Positions 12,121 through 45,478 of a stretch of 64,000 bases of DNA are shown here, piece by piece. This stretch comes from Streptantibioticus parmotrematis (lineage in GTDB: Bacteria > Actinomycetota > Actinomycetes > Streptomycetales > Streptomycetaceae). Below the pieces are notes generated by a model that ran no database searches, was not told where the DNA came from, and worked only from the letters and a program-made list of their open reading frames with translations. The stretch lies in contig NZ_JAINVZ010000009.1 in assembly GCF_019890615.1 (NCBI RefSeq), positions 186,001 to 250,000 on the forward strand, given 5' to 3'. Numbering within the stretch: position 1 is the stretch's first letter; each line of letters begins with the position of its first letter. The translations under genes and the position numbers were made by a program.

Positions 12121-12506
12121 GGGCCGACCTCACTCGTTCGTACTCGCTGCGCTCTCCGTGCTGCCTCACGCTCCCGTCCGCCGGACCGACCCTAGACGGT
12201 CGGCGCCCCGGCGGCCGGTGCGCGTTCCTCCCGTGGGACGAGGCGTCCGGAAGGACCAGTTCCCCGGTATCGGCCCTGATCAGCGCTTCGTGACAGGATG
12301 CGCATACGGCCGTCGCGGAGCCCGCACATCAGCCGGGCGGACGCACCTGATCGGGGACCGCGTCCAGGGCCGCCCGGGCCCTGGCGGGCCACCGCGAGAT
12401 GGACGTTACGTCTCCGTGGACTTCCGGCGACCGCCGTGCCGTGCCAGCATGGAAGGCGATCCGGGGACGCCGTCAGGGCGCCTCGAGACACGAAGGAGCC
12501 GTTGCC
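12121..12506. other. 386-base divergent spacer, EEP gene / panB
   Basis: No convincing gene. It holds the probable EEP promoter (TAGGGT at 12194-12189) embedded in a small dyad, CCGACC-CTAGAC-GGTCGG (12186-12203). panB needs a promoter here, but I see no clear -35/-10 pair for it. An ATG at 12450 opens a frame that simply runs into panB out of phase and is not credible. Confidence 0.5.
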
Positions 12507-13373
12507 ATGACGCACGTCGAGCCTGCCCAGAAATCCTCCGACGGCAGCAAGGCGCTGTACGGCGGCACGAGCACTCGCCGTATCACCGTCCGCGACATAG
12601 CCGCCGCCAAGGAACGCGGCGAGAAGTGGCCCATGCTCACCGCCTACGACGCCATGACCGCCTCCGTCTTCGACGACGCGGGCATCCCGGTGCTGCTGGT
12701 CGGTGACTCGATGGGCAACTGTCACCTCGGCTACGACAGCACCGTCCCGGTGACCATGGACGAGATCGCCATCCTGTCGGCGGCCGTCGTACGGGGCACC
12801 AAGCGCGCGCTGATCGTCGCCGACCTGCCCTTCGGCTCGTACCAGGAGGGCGCCACCCAGGCGCTGCGCAACGCCACCCGGCTGATGAAGGACTCCGGGG
12901 TCGGCGCGATCAAGCTGGAGGGCGGCGAGCGCTCCGCCCACCAGATCGAGCTGCTGGTGCAGTCCGGCATCCCGGTCATGGCGCACGTCGGCCTGACCCC
13001 GCAGTCCGTCAACGCCTTCGGCGGCTACCCGGTGCAGGGGCGCGGCGAGGAGGCGGCCCAGCAGCTGCTGCGGGACGCCAAGGCGGTGCAGGACGCGGGC
13101 GCCTTCGCGGTCGTGCTGGAGGTCGTGCCGGCCGAGCTGGCCGCCGAGGTCACCACCGCCTTGCACATCCCCACCGTCGGCATCGGCGCGGGGCCCGAGT
13201 GCGACGCGCAGGTGCTGGTGTGGACCGACATGGCGGGCATGACCGGCGGCCGGGTGCCGCGGTTCGTCAAGCAGTACGCGCAGCTGCGCGAGGTGCTGGG
13301 CGGCGCGGCGCGGTCGTTCGCCGACGAGGTGGTCGGCGGCGTCTACCCGGCGGCGGAGCACAGCTTCCACTGA
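12507..13373 (+). CDS. panB: 3-methyl-2-oxobutanoate hydroxymethyltransferase
   Basis: PanB makes ketopantoate from alpha-ketoisovalerate and 5,10-methylenetetrahydrofolate, the first committed step to pantothenate and coenzyme A. The 288-residue (beta/alpha)8 protein has MLTAYDAMTASVFDDAG, the metal-binding GDSMGNCHLGYDST, HVGLTPQS and GIGAGPECDAQVLVWTD, all family signatures. An in-frame start at 12399 exists, but ATG 12507 has AAGGAG at 9 nt and gives the normal length with a short polar N-terminus. It stands alone; panC and panD are not in the window. Confidence 0.97.
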   Translation: MTHVEPAQKSSDGSKALYGGTSTRRITVRDIAAAKERGEKWPMLTAYDAMTASVFDDAGIPVLLVGDSMGNCHLGYDSTVPVTMDEIAILSAAVVRGTKRALIVADLPFGSYQEGATQALRNATRLMKDSGVGAIKLEGGERSAHQIELLVQSGIPVMAHVGLTPQSVNAFGGYPVQGRGEEAAQQLLRDAKAVQDAGAFAVVLEVVPAELAAEVTTALHIPTVGIGAGPECDAQVLVWTDMAGMTGGRVPRFVKQYAQLREVLGGAARSFADEVVGGVYPAAEHSFH

Positions 13374-13446
13374 TCTCGCGGTGACCTCATGGTGACCGGG
13401 CGCGGCGTCCGCTGGAGTCGGTGCCGCGCGCGTTGAGCAATACCCC

Positions 13447-13496
13447 GGCTCCTTCCGTATGACCAGGTGAAGGCCCCTGGACATACGGAAGGAGCC
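13447..13496 (+). promoter_or_regulatory. 21-bp inverted repeat sequestering a Shine-Dalgarno
   Basis: Arms 13447-13467 and 13476-13496 pair at 20 of 21 positions around an 8-base loop. The right arm contains GGAAGGAG, the ribosome site of the small gene that starts four bases later at 13500. In mRNA the stem would fully bury that site, so translation would need the stem opened. The dyad could equally be a DNA operator, or a terminator for panB 73 bases upstream. Confidence 0.75.
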
Positions 13497-13499
13497 ACC

Positions 13500-13649
13500 A
13501 TGTCCCCCCACAGCAAGCGCTTCGCCGACCCTCCAGGGCCGGTCCGCCGTACCGATGTGCCGGCGGCCTCGCCGGAGGAGCCGCAGGCATCCCCCGGCGT
13601 CCCGAGTACCCCCAGCACCCCGAGCGGGTCCGGTGGCGACGGCTACTGA
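13500..13649 (+). CDS. 49-residue hypothetical protein ahead of the sigma factor
   Basis: A small hydrophilic protein, MSPHSKRF at the start and Pro/Ser/Gly-rich at the end (SPGVPSTPSTPSGSGGDGY). No membrane segment, cysteine or known motif is present. The AAGGAG ribosome site 5 nt before the ATG is excellent but lies inside the 21-bp inverted repeat. The stop is 38 bases before the chosen start of the ECF sigma gene, so the two may share a transcript. It could be a real small protein or a leader ORF that couples translation to opening of the hairpin. I do not recognise a family. Confidence 0.55.
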   Translation: MSPHSKRFADPPGPVRRTDVPAASPEEPQASPGVPSTPSTPSGSGGDGY

Positions 13650-13689
13650 GACCGCGGGAGCCGAGGAGCGGGTGGGACGGGAGCCGGGC

Positions 13690-14241
13690 GTGCGCGAGGA
13701 TGTGGGTGTGGACCGACGTCACCCTCCGGAGCAGGGGCCGGAGGAGGAGCTGATGCGGGCGCTGTACCGCGAGCACGCGGGCCCGTTGCTGGCCTACGTG
13801 ATGCGGCTGGTCGCCGGTGACCGCCATCTGGCCGAGGACGTCGTGCAGGAGACGCTGCTGCGTGCCTGGCGCAGCGCCTCCCGGCTGGACCCGGCCGCCC
13901 GGTCGCTGCGTCCCTGGCTGGTGACGGTCGCCCGCCGGGTGGTGATCGACGGCCACCGCGGCCGGATGACCCGCCCGCCCGAGACCGGCCCGGCCGCGCT
14001 GGAGCAGCTGCCCGCCGAGGACGAACTCGACCGCGCCCTGCGGATGATGACCATCACCGACGCGTTGGACGACCTCACCGAGTCGCACCGTCAGGTACTG
14101 ATAGAGACGTACTTCAAGGGCCGCAGCACCACCGAGGCGGCGGCCCGCCTGGGGGTGCCGCCCGGCACGGTGCGTTCACGCGTCTTCTACGCGCTGCGCA
14201 GCCTGCGGATCGCACTGGAGGAGAGAGGGGTGACCTCGTGA
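13690..14241 (+). CDS. ECF-type RNA polymerase sigma factor
   Basis: About 183 residues with sigma region 2 (ALYREHAGPLLAYVMRLV through AEDVVQETLLRAWR) and region 4 with the helix-turn-helix TEAAARLGVPPGTVRSRVFYALRSLR. It is partnered by the anti-sigma gene that overlaps it by four bases, which resembles the SigK/SigL-type ECF pairs. Several GTG starts are possible: 13690 (GGGAG 6 nt upstream) and 13708 (GAGG 8 nt upstream) are both good, and 13633 and 13672 are worse. It should direct RNA polymerase to a stress regulon when the anti-sigma factor is inactivated. No self-promoter was recognised. Confidence 0.9.
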   Translation: MREDVGVDRRHPPEQGPEEELMRALYREHAGPLLAYVMRLVAGDRHLAEDVVQETLLRAWRSASRLDPAARSLRPWLVTVARRVVIDGHRGRMTRPPETGPAALEQLPAEDELDRALRMMTITDALDDLTESHRQVLIETYFKGRSTTEAAARLGVPPGTVRSRVFYALRSLRIALEERGVTS

Positions 14242-14924
14242 CCGGTTTCGAACCGTTCGACCCGCACGTCGATGTCGGCGCCTATGTGCTGGGCGTGCTG
14301 GACGAGTCCGACATGGACCGGTTCGAACAGCACCTCGCGGTGTGCGGTACGTGTTCCGCCCGGCTGGAGGAGCTGAGTGGCCTGGTGCCGATCCTGGCCG
14401 AGATCGGCCAGGACGGTCCGCCCCGGCCTCCGGACGGCGCCCTGCTGGACCGGCTGCTCGCCGAGGTGGCCGGTGAGCGCCGCACGAAGCGGCGGTGGCG
14501 CAGGCTGATGGCGGTGGCCGCCGCGGCGCTGATCGTCGCGGGGCCCACCGCGGCCGTGGTGAGCATGGAGACGACCAGCAGCCCGCCCGCCGCCGGCCAG
14601 TCGTTCGCCCACAGCTACACCGCCACGGACGCCGGCACCGGGGTGTCCGCCACGATCGGGCTGACCGCACGCCAGTGGGGCACCCAGATCGACATGCGGC
14701 TGTCCGACGTCGGCGGCCCCCGCACCTGCCACCTGGTCGTCGTCGGCACCCACGGGCAGCAGGAGACGGTCGCGAACTGGACGGTGCCACCGGGCGGCTA
14801 CGCGTCGGGCGGCAAGCCGCGGCCGATCAGCGTCTCCGGGGCCACCGCCATGTCCCCCTCCGACATCGCCCGTTTCGACGTGATCACCACGCAGGGCCAG
14901 AAGCTGGTCTCGGTGCCGGCCTGA
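14238..14924 (+). CDS. zinc-finger transmembrane anti-sigma factor
   Basis: A 228-residue partner of the preceding sigma factor. The cytoplasmic N-terminal domain carries the zf-HC2/ZAS motif His32-x3-Cys36-x2-Cys39 (HLAVCGTC). One membrane helix lies at about residues 88-108, and a roughly 115-residue outer domain rich in Thr/Gly (RskA-like) follows, probably the sensor. The GTG start overlaps the sigma stop as GTGA, so the two are translationally coupled and made in stoichiometric amounts. Release of the sigma factor probably involves regulated proteolysis. A site-2-protease homologue lies 5.5 kb downstream, but a link is only a guess. Confidence 0.9.
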   Translation: MTGFEPFDPHVDVGAYVLGVLDESDMDRFEQHLAVCGTCSARLEELSGLVPILAEIGQDGPPRPPDGALLDRLLAEVAGERRTKRRWRRLMAVAAAALIVAGPTAAVVSMETTSSPPAAGQSFAHSYTATDAGTGVSATIGLTARQWGTQIDMRLSDVGGPRTCHLVVVGTHGQQETVANWTVPPGGYASGGKPRPISVSGATAMSPSDIARFDVITTQGQKLVSVPA

Positions 14925-43133: not shown

Positions 43134-43922
43134 TCACAGGTCCGAAGGCGCCGCGGCCAGGGCCAGGGAGAGCCCCTGACGGCGGATTCCCATCAGTTCG
43201 AGGCGGCTCGCCCTGCTGTCGGTGACGACGTGGTGGACGGACTCGAGACCGCAGATCGGCTGTGCGCAGCGGCGCCCGAGCTTGGAGCTGTCGGCCACCA
43301 CGATGACGCGGCGGGCCTGCTCGATGATGGCGCGGCTGACCAGCGCCTCGTCCGCGTCGTGGGCGGTCAGGCCATGGCGTGCGCCGATGCCGTCCACCCC
43401 GACGACGGCCACGTCGTAGCGGCGCCGCCGTATCACGGTGGTGGCCAGGTCGCCGACGAGTTGCTGGGAGGAGGGCCGGGCCGAGCCGCCGGTGACGACC
43501 ACCTGCACGCGTTGCCGCGCCATCAACGACCCCGCTATGTCGAGGGAGTTGGTGACGACGCGCAGACCGGAGCGAGCCGTGAGGCACTGTGCGACCGAGT
43601 GGGCGGTCGTGCCGCCGCCGATCGCCACGGTCAGCGGACCGAGGGGCACGAGCGACGCGGCCAGCGCGCCGATGCGGCGTTTCGCCTCCGCCTCGTGGGA
43701 CCGCCGGAAGGAGACCGGCACCTCGCTCCCCGGCCGGACCGCGGTCACCTTGCCGTAGGAACGGCGGACCAGCCCGGCGTCCTCCATGCACATCAGGTCG
43801 CGTCGCACGGTCGCGCCGGAGACACCCAGCCGCCGCGTGAGCGACTGCACGGTGATCACCGGCGACTCGCCCAGGAGCCGCAGGATCCTCCGCATGCGGG
43901 AGGCGCGCTCGTCAGAGGTCAT
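43134..43922 (-). CDS. DeoR/GlpR-family sugar-responsive regulator
   Basis: A 262-residue DeoR-type repressor. The N-terminal HTH is VITVQSLTRRLGVSGATVRRDLMCMEDAGLV (residues about 22-52). The effector domain has the sugar-phosphate-isomerase-like features VAIGGGTTAHSVAQ, VVTNSLDIAGSL and VVVADSSKLG. Such regulators respond to phosphorylated sugars. Being first beside the run of secreted glycan-related proteins, it is a candidate regulator for them. AGGTG lies about 6 nt before the ATG. It converges with the TetR gene with nine bases between. Confidence 0.9.
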   Translation of the reverse strand: MTSDERASRMRRILRLLGESPVITVQSLTRRLGVSGATVRRDLMCMEDAGLVRRSYGKVTAVRPGSEVPVSFRRSHEAEAKRRIGALAASLVPLGPLTVAIGGGTTAHSVAQCLTARSGLRVVTNSLDIAGSLMARQRVQVVVTGGSARPSSQQLVGDLATTVIRRRRYDVAVVGVDGIGARHGLTAHDADEALVSRAIIEQARRVIVVADSSKLGRRCAQPICGLESVHHVVTDSRASRLELMGIRRQGLSLALAAAPSDL

Positions 43923-43972
43923 CGTTCACCTGCTCTCCGGCCGTCGCCCCGCCTTCCGAGCTCTCCGAGCCC

Positions 43973-44014
43973 CCTCGTCCCGTCGTCCGTTCCCTCGCGG
44001 ACGACGGGACGAGG
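43973..44014. terminator. perfect 17-bp terminator hairpin
   Basis: Arms 43973-43989 and 43998-44014 are exact complements around an eight-base loop. It lies 15 bases beyond the stop of a relic lectin tail (44029-44073) and about 75 bases beyond the present lectin stop, so it probably ends leftward transcription of the secreted-protein genes. Confidence 0.85.
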
Positions 44015-44028
44015 CGGCTACGAGGTCG

Positions 44029-44089: not shown

Positions 44090-45478
44090 CTAGTCCGTCG
44101 TGTACCAGTGCTCGTTCGGCTGGCCGGAGCACGTTTCGAGGTCCAGCGAGCTGTAACCCTCCGTGGTCTGGCCTCCCTTGTCCGCGAGGCAGAGGCTGGA
44201 GACCGGGTTGTAGATCTCGTTCCACCGGCCGACGACCCACTTCTGTCCCGTACTGCCGTCGCAGGAGGCGAGGGCCACGGCGGCGCCGGCGCTCGCGCCG
44301 TTCGCCGCGAGGCACAAGCCCTTCACCTGGAGGGTGTTGTCCAGGCCGAAGGTCCAGTTCTGCGCGTCGTCGCCCTGGGCGCAGTCCCACAGGTCGGCGG
44401 TGGCGGGAGCCTGCGTGGCACTGCCGAAGTCGTCCAGGCAGAGGTTCGCTCCGCCGCTTCCCTGGGTGCCGTACCGCAGGAAGCCCTCAGGCGCGGTGCT
44501 GGTGTCCGCGTTCGGTGTGAACGTGGCGTTGACGTCGCTCACCGAGGACGTCGTGTCGCTGCCCTCGTTGCTGCTCACGATCTGCACCCCGCGCAGGATG
44601 AAGTCGGAGTCCGGCAGGTTCCAGGGGTCGACGTAGGACTTGTAGGTCTGGAACAGCTGACCGAAGTCGTCGCTCACCGACGTCGTCGAGGAGTCGGGGA
44701 TCTGGGCGTCGCTGCGCACCGTGACGCGGCAGCCCGTGCCGCACTCCCCCTGGCTGAGGTCGTCGTACGCGTTGTCCCACTGCACCCCGTTGGACTTGGC
44801 GGTCGCGAACGGGCCGGGGTCGAAGTGGACGACGGAGATGACGTCGGGCTTGCCGGAGCCGTTGTGCGGGTCCTGGAAGATGAAGTCCGTGGTGAGGATG
44901 GCCCGTTTCTGGCCGCACGTGAAGCCACCGTTCTGGTGGATGCTCGCGCGGTACGAGACGCTGGGCGCGCCCTCGGCCATGGTGAGCGGCTGGTAGTCGG
45001 GCCCCGGCACGAGGTCGTCGTCCGTGTAGGTGTAACTGACGTTGGTCTCGTGCAGGTCGCAGTCGCCGGTGGCGGTGTTCCGCATCGTTATGGTCTTCGA
45101 ACCGCCCCCGGACGACGTCGCGTCGAAGGAGTAGCCGGTCGGCTGGTCCCTGCTGCTCTTGTTCCAGCCGTAAGTGCCCAGATCCCATGCGGAGTGCGGG
45201 CTGTCGATGTTCATCGTGTCGTTGTGCTGGTCGGCGGCGCACTGGGACTCGTCGGTCCAGGGAGCGCCCTGCGGAACGCTGTCGTCGCCGTTCGGGGCGC
45301 CCTCGATGAGCGACGAGTAGCAGTCGTTCGTCGGACCGGGGTCGTACAGCAGCGGGAACGGCGGCGGTGCGGGAGCGGCCGACGCGGGCTGCGTCAGCGT
45401 CCACACGGCGGGAACGAGGAGCAGGAGGGCGGCGACGGCGGCGAGCAGCGCTCTGCGCGGGGAGGCGAGGACTTTCAC
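44090..45478 (-). CDS. secreted protein with C-terminal ricin-B lectin domain
   Basis: A 462-residue exported protein. The signal peptide (residues 1-34, ending PASAAPAP) is followed by an unfamiliar Asp/Ser/Thr-rich region of about 280 residues with several Cys and segments such as NDCYSSLIEGAPNGDDS and FIFQDPHNGSGKPDVISVVHFDPGPF. A ricin-type beta-trefoil follows (about 330-462) with QNWTF, GQKWVVGRW and NEHWYTTD as QxW-like repeats, so carbohydrate binding is likely. The GTG at 45478 has GGAG 7 nt upstream. The upstream element at 45515-45550 is shared with the spherulin-like gene. The N-terminal domain has no recognised catalytic motif. Confidence 0.8.
   Translation of the reverse strand: MKVLASPRRALLAAVAALLLLVPAVWTLTQPASAAPAPPPFPLLYDPGPTNDCYSSLIEGAPNGDDSVPQGAPWTDESQCAADQHNDTMNIDSPHSAWDLGTYGWNKSSRDQPTGYSFDATSSGGGSKTITMRNTATGDCDLHETNVSYTYTDDDLVPGPDYQPLTMAEGAPSVSYRASIHQNGGFTCGQKRAILTTDFIFQDPHNGSGKPDVISVVHFDPGPFATAKSNGVQWDNAYDDLSQGECGTGCRVTVRSDAQIPDSSTTSVSDDFGQLFQTYKSYVDPWNLPDSDFILRGVQIVSSNEGSDTTSSVSDVNATFTPNADTSTAPEGFLRYGTQGSGGANLCLDDFGSATQAPATADLWDCAQGDDAQNWTFGLDNTLQVKGLCLAANGASAGAAVALASCDGSTGQKWVVGRWNEIYNPVSSLCLADKGGQTTEGYSSLDLETCSGQPNEHWYTTD

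Follow-up and report, generated by a model that had tools for sequence, protein, structure and literature searches.

The window, the whole 64-kb stretch of DNA analysed here, carries on its plus strand a panB gene followed by an operon for an ECF sigma factor, with a long hairpin between them. panB (12399–13373, start tentative) codes for ketopantoate hydroxymethyltransferase and is recognized by Pfam PF02548 with an E-value of 8e-109. Behind it lie a 49-codon open reading frame (ORF, 13500–13649), a sigma factor gene (13708–14241; Pfam Sigma70_r2 and r4) and, at 14238–14924, an anti-sigma factor gene with a zf-HC2 domain (PF13490). The two regulatory genes had been named in an earlier note made from the letters alone, and the domain searches confirm both. 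The sigma gene is assigned a GTG start at 13708, preceded by GAGGA at 13696–13700, a placement made by eye.

The sigma factor is SigL-like. It scores 238.8 bits (cut-off 202) against PRK09645, which we take to be the SigL family model, and its best solved relative is SigL of Mycobacterium tuberculosis (6dv9, E 1.8e-36). Both sigma genes have a zinc anti-sigma partner, a zf-HC2 gene adjoining in the window and RslA in M. tuberculosis; the window operon differs in including a lipoprotein gene and the hairpin. A possible link to Streptomyces coelicolor SigU lies in SCO0930, the namesake of the lipoprotein family, which is listed in the SigU regulon in the available portion of one paper (PMC6295645) and in a transcriptome table in that of another (PMC2267785). 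With ORF 13500–13649 and the lipoprotein of locus L034 resembling the SCO0930 family, the window sigma factor may be related to SigU.

The 49-codon ORF is present as the earlier note described it, but it is not an ordinary small gene, as its counterpart in the genus encodes a lipoprotein of 188 amino acids. The genus comparison comprises the window genome and one other genome, G001, in which the ORF at the equivalent start has 188 codons and matches PF03640 (Lipoprotein_15, E 3e-33); the SCO0930 lipoprotein model gives the G001 protein 177.2 bits, under its cut-off of 275. Relative to G001, the window ORF retains the start and near-relatives of the last codons, and the 139 codons between them are missing. 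A Pfam search of the 49-codon product returned no match up to E 0.1, the Lipoprotein_15 repeat domain being absent, and searching the window's own genome for the lipoprotein gave no close second copy, the best match having 34% identity over residues 98–182 and one other being weaker. The ORF is a remnant, shortened by an internal deletion, of a SCO0930-like Lipoprotein_15 gene. Lipoprotein matches are also lacking at 16 of the 30 loci L035–L064. At four loci (L053, L055, L060 and L062) an ATG past the hairpin shares the reading frame of the sigma gene, so that without the lipoprotein the sigma factor may gain an N-terminal extension under the ribosome site of the hairpin; at L058 the ATG past the hairpin starts a 17-codon ORF.

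The hairpin occupies 13447–13496. Its left arm (13447–13467) and right arm (13476–13496) form 20 of 21 possible pairs (95% complementary) around an 8-base loop (13468–13475), the dimensions previously given for it, and as RNA the element folds with −37.8 kcal/mol. The right arm encloses the entire Shine-Dalgarno (SD) sequence GGAAGGAG (13487–13494) ahead of the ATG at 13500, which agrees with the earlier placement of the whole ribosome site inside the stem. Under a rule allowing at most one mismatch and a loop of up to 20 bases, this is the second longest near-perfect hairpin in the window, exceeded by one of 21 pairs (43968–44019) and followed by one of 15; by this rule, 12 Markov-simulated 64-kb sequences peaked at 12–16 pairs. 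Within 261 nt of context the fold beats those of shuffled sequences by 2.3 sd, and 2 of 200 shuffles fold equally well. All 50 bases of the hairpin, including the right arm, are identical in G001, in an alignment from the panB end to the ORF start that covers 378 bases at 92% identity. A BLAST search of 297 family genomes returned, beyond the two genus members, only short matches, mostly to the coding part, which are taken as chance. The Rfam search of the element returned three microRNA models only, each far below its gathering score.

By a crude gene call, six of the ten longest hairpins of the window fall between genes, and five of these six lie 3–74 nt past a gene end. The longest, the U-poor 21-pair hairpin at 43968–44019 (−46.1 kcal/mol), lies 71 nt beyond the stop of the minus-strand ORF 44090–45478 and ~46 nt ahead of where another minus-strand ORF, 43134–43922, starts; this ORF appears DeoR-like by eye. 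The hairpin is possibly a similar case of a gene-end hairpin over a promoter.

A promoter motif on the left arm

Comparison of the sequence preceding the sigma gene (up to 1000 nt) at 169 of 170 loci (L066, without a sigma match in the stretch examined, was omitted; near-duplicates are included) reveals the motif TGAG-N18-CGTA at 76 loci, and TGAG-CGTA at any other spacing from 12 to 25 at only 0–2 loci each. In the window the motif spans 13434–13459, with a predicted −35 element TGAG at 13434–13437 and a predicted −10 core CGTA at 13456–13459, such that the left arm overlaps both the promoter spacer and the −10. The exact motif is missing in 93 loci, many of which belong to Streptomyces and show no panB and no lipoprotein match. 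A strict search of the window's own genome with TTGAG-N17-CCGTAT found this site alone and no other target promoter, and a sigma-70 promoter scan found none. On this comparative evidence the left arm is predicted to be the promoter of the operon, and we infer that the sigma factor encoded in the window uses it.

The candidate −10 shares CGT with that of M. tuberculosis SigL, which, in the available text of PMC6372665, prefers C-14 G-13 and then T-12 G-11 N C/A A G-7. The window has A at −11, whereas SigL favours G. The same text reports that SigL residues H54 and D60 set specificity at −12 and −11; these align, counted by eye, with S and P in the window sigma factor, and the A at −11 fits this correspondence. 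On SigL scaffolds with 4–7 nt between the −10 region and the downstream double strand, initiation is described at 2 nt before the double strand, with a spacer optimum of 6 nt (PMC6372665, same portion). If this Mycobacterium geometry applies and CGTA is set at −14 to −11, transcription would start at 13466–13469, within a conserved GGTGA (13466–13470); the best guess is 13468, the first base of the loop, with a register of plus or minus a base or two. With the left arm as promoter and the start at its end, mRNA made from this promoter should contain neither that arm nor the stem. A leaderless GTG start at 13467 (60-aa ORF) was rejected because G001 has one more base before the ATG, which puts the GTG out of frame.

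Several loci show further repeats around the promoter. At L043 and L044 it is flanked by repeated CGTATGTCC / GGACATACG elements, and L044 has TGAGCAATCGGTCGCAC-like units several times upstream, perhaps as duplicated −35 elements. L047 and L049 carry another strong hairpin, of 15–25 pairs, that lies over the −35 and not the −10 and whose left arm adjoins panB.

The end of panB and the ribosome site

At 43 of the 169 loci panB lies upstream on the strand of the sigma gene. For a comparison of arm pairing, the 76 promoter loci were reduced to 60 by removing near-duplicates and seven loci with short flanks (L063, L085, L095, L100, L103, L112 and L171, none with panB in view). Strong pairing between the arms (z below −4, with thresholds and groups chosen after looking) occurs at 9 of 37 loci with panB upstream and at 0 of 23 loci with another neighbour (Fisher p 0.0097, not corrected for phylogeny). 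The nine strong loci span five genera (g1, g6, g7, g8 and g14). At 13 of the 23 other-neighbour loci the best-scoring upstream ORF is on the opposite strand, and several of these scores are weak. Among the observations that weigh against the reading favoured below, strong −10 pairing is absent in 28 of the 37 panB loci, and at L157 a clear co-directional ORF ends 84 nt before the promoter with no hairpin.

The hairpin in the window starts 74 nt past the panB stop and ends 123 nt past it. Of the features of an intrinsic terminator, a stable hairpin after the stop codon is present and a T-rich tail is absent: no T-tailed site was found in 13370–13800, and the sequence downstream of the hairpin reads ACCATGTCC. 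T-tailed terminators between panB and the promoter are found at none of the nine strong loci and at 16 of 42 panB loci (near-duplicates kept), and within these 42 the presence of one makes no difference to pairing strength (Mann-Whitney p 0.67). At two loci scored as terminator-free, L055 and L058, a bulged hairpin with a T-rich stretch after it is visible by eye. The element may nevertheless work like a terminator, since many Streptomyces 3' ends are U-poor too. The available part of PMC12207403 describes U-poor 3' ends with unusually long, stable hairpins and transcript ends at a median of 66–76 nt from the coding sequence, and that of PMC8269248 counts 535 highly structured 3' ends in S. 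clavuligerus, 353 of which have fewer than three U. An end at the base of the window hairpin, 123 nt from the stop, exceeds this median, which concerns transcript ends and not hairpin starts; the other U-poor 21-pair hairpin of the window likewise starts ~70 nt past a stop codon, which counts for the favoured reading. In form the hairpin fits Streptomyces gene ends as these sources depict them, although its distance is longer than the median.

The computed cost of opening the SD depends strongly on where the RNA begins. With 36 nt past the ATG included, opening takes 23.3 kcal/mol in read-through RNA of the window and 2.8 kcal/mol in RNA beginning at 13467, and the corresponding values for G001 are 22.4 and 2.6 kcal/mol. 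When RNA from 13467 is extended to 60 nt past the ATG, the cost is 8.1 kcal/mol in the window and 2.6 kcal/mol in G001. Overall, read-through RNA needs 22–23.5 kcal/mol. In the window's own RNA six of the eight SD bases are mostly paired with the coding sequence in 11 of 12 folds. Masking gains elsewhere are smaller: 4.1–4.7 kcal/mol at L037, −0.2 to 3.8 kcal/mol at L053, L055, L058, L059, L060 and L062, and −1.5 to 3.3 kcal/mol at L047 and L049. Among loci without strong pairing, L038 gains 0.5–2.7 and L041 7.3–7.5 kcal/mol, and L042 loses 2.0–2.2 kcal/mol. In these models strong masking characterizes the genus of the window, while the hairpin as such occurs more widely; for this reason the two roles are combined below, and the gene-end role is also rated by itself.

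The reading we favour, and judge fairly probable, is that the hairpin belongs to RNA read through from panB across a SigL-like autopromoter, and that it ends this foreign RNA or masks the ribosome site in it, while the sigma-driven mRNA stays translatable. RNA polymerase arriving from panB would transcribe both arms, and the hairpin would form. It would then serve as the U-poor 3' end of panB, as a terminator or an exonuclease barrier, and in any RNA continuing past it the ribosome site of the lipoprotein gene would be hidden. RNA polymerase bearing the sigma factor would begin where the left arm ends or within the loop, and its mRNA would therefore be without the left arm and translatable. 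The hairpin should block only transcripts leaking from the neighbouring gene, and insulation, not temperature sensing, is its probable role. The earlier suggestion that the stem silences translation is thus kept in part, as a predicted masking that probably acts in RNA entering from upstream and not in the operon's own mRNA.

A second account drops the masking role, and differs from the favoured reading solely in this. The hairpin would be a U-poor 3' terminator or barrier of panB and nothing more, and that it covers promoter and ribosome site would be a by-product of the short intergenic gap. Three observations suit this account. First, strong hairpins persist at L043–L046 and L064, where the lipoprotein match is absent; this is the reverse of a stem lost while the ORF is kept, which the earlier note had named as the outcome that would speak against it. 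Second, stable U-poor hairpins are frequent at Streptomyces 3' ends in the available parts of PMC8269248 and PMC12207403. Third, a similar hairpin follows another gene in the window. However, in the genus the stem spans the entire SD, whose opening is computed to be ~20 kcal/mol dearer in read-through RNA, and the hairpin base lies beyond the transcript-end median available from PMC12207403. A gene end without masking is rated as rather unlikely.

Pairing of the arms across genera

Across genera the two arms have changed together, while the distance between them varies. Over 65 non-redundant loci, arms paired with their own partners sum to −2037 kcal/mol, compared with −1848 kcal/mol (sd 29) for shuffled partners, and none of 10000 permutations is as good. 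Parts of the stem were compared in the same way. In the outer stem, at seven loci of four genera, own partners pair at 7.9 of 9 positions and swapped partners at 5.5, with 12 of 5040 permutations doing as well as the own partners; these loci were picked after inspection as those in which the stem extends into the promoter spacer, with L037 added as a weak relative. Two of them are exceptions, L037, for which several foreign arms pair better than its own, and L035, which forms 7 pairs with its own arm and 8 with that of L064. For the inner stem, compared at 14 chosen loci, none of 100000 permutations does as well. The spacer halves of the arms have 3–6 of 9 bases in common between the compared genera, with complementarity kept, and the partner of the −10 C lies at +31 to +75 across loci.

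These comparisons bear on whether the dyad is a DNA operator, that is, whether a dimeric regulator bound over the −10 represses the operon. A near-perfect dyad over a promoter has the usual look of an operator, and the arm mismatches (12 G-U and 14 others at 17 loci) do not separate RNA from DNA. The protein-bound dyad entertained in the earlier note is nonetheless improbable: a structure fits better than a fixed operator because spacer sequence and arm distance vary with complementarity kept, and strong arm pairing is absent at all 23 loci that share the promoter motif but have a different neighbour.

A regulated leader in the operon's own mRNA, whether a thermometer or a switch responding to a metabolite or to ribosomes, accounts for the full pairing of the SD but is the least credible alternative and highly improbable, as the left arm is predicted to lie in the promoter and outside that mRNA, a thermometer would call for a marginally stable stem in its own leader and this 20-pair stem (−37.8 kcal/mol; 23.3 kcal/mol to open the SD of read-through RNA) should stay folded at growth temperature, and the Rfam search gave only matches far below their gathering scores. 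Thermometer, riboswitch and protein operator, the forms of control first suggested for this stem, are each unlikely.

Relation to known systems and implications

In the transposase genes of IS10 and IS50 and in T4 gene e, transcription from an internal promoter starts inside an inverted repeat; the downstream arm of the repeat covers the ribosome site, and the stem is formed only by RNA from outside. The window likewise has a right arm that pairs the ribosome site, and with its predicted start at the end of the left arm or in the loop it would share the rest of this anatomy. It differs in that the unit concerned is an ECF sigma operon on the chromosome, downstream of a housekeeping gene, and in that the stem may also be the 3' end of the upstream gene. 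Searches of open-licence literature yielded no paper describing this anatomy and none recognised as describing this locus, and the available parts of PMC4265352 and PMC8450116 do not mention the anatomy. Compared with the U-poor gene-end hairpins of Streptomyces, as far as the accessible sections of PMC8269248 and PMC12207403 describe them, the window hairpin is likewise long, very stable, without a U tract and placed after a stop; unlike them, its right arm extends to the SD of the operon that follows, its left arm carries the predicted promoter of that operon, and its base lies 123 nt past the stop.

It is conceivable, as a tentative extension of the favoured reading, that this is a recurrent design in which an autopromoter is nested in the end hairpin of the upstream gene. 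Terminator, translation lock and promoter would be combined in one element such that only the activated sigma factor makes a translatable operon RNA, and the element would have been rebuilt with different sequence in several genera, including the hairpins over the −35 at L047 and L049.

ECF operons are commonly self-amplifying, so leak from a neighbouring gene could trigger them. If the favoured reading is true, a hairpin formed by foreign RNA alone would be a simple guard against such leak. Promoters overlapping gene-end hairpins would then be worth seeking across compact actinobacterial genomes, and small ORFs beneath such hairpins should not at once be taken for riboswitch-controlled genes.
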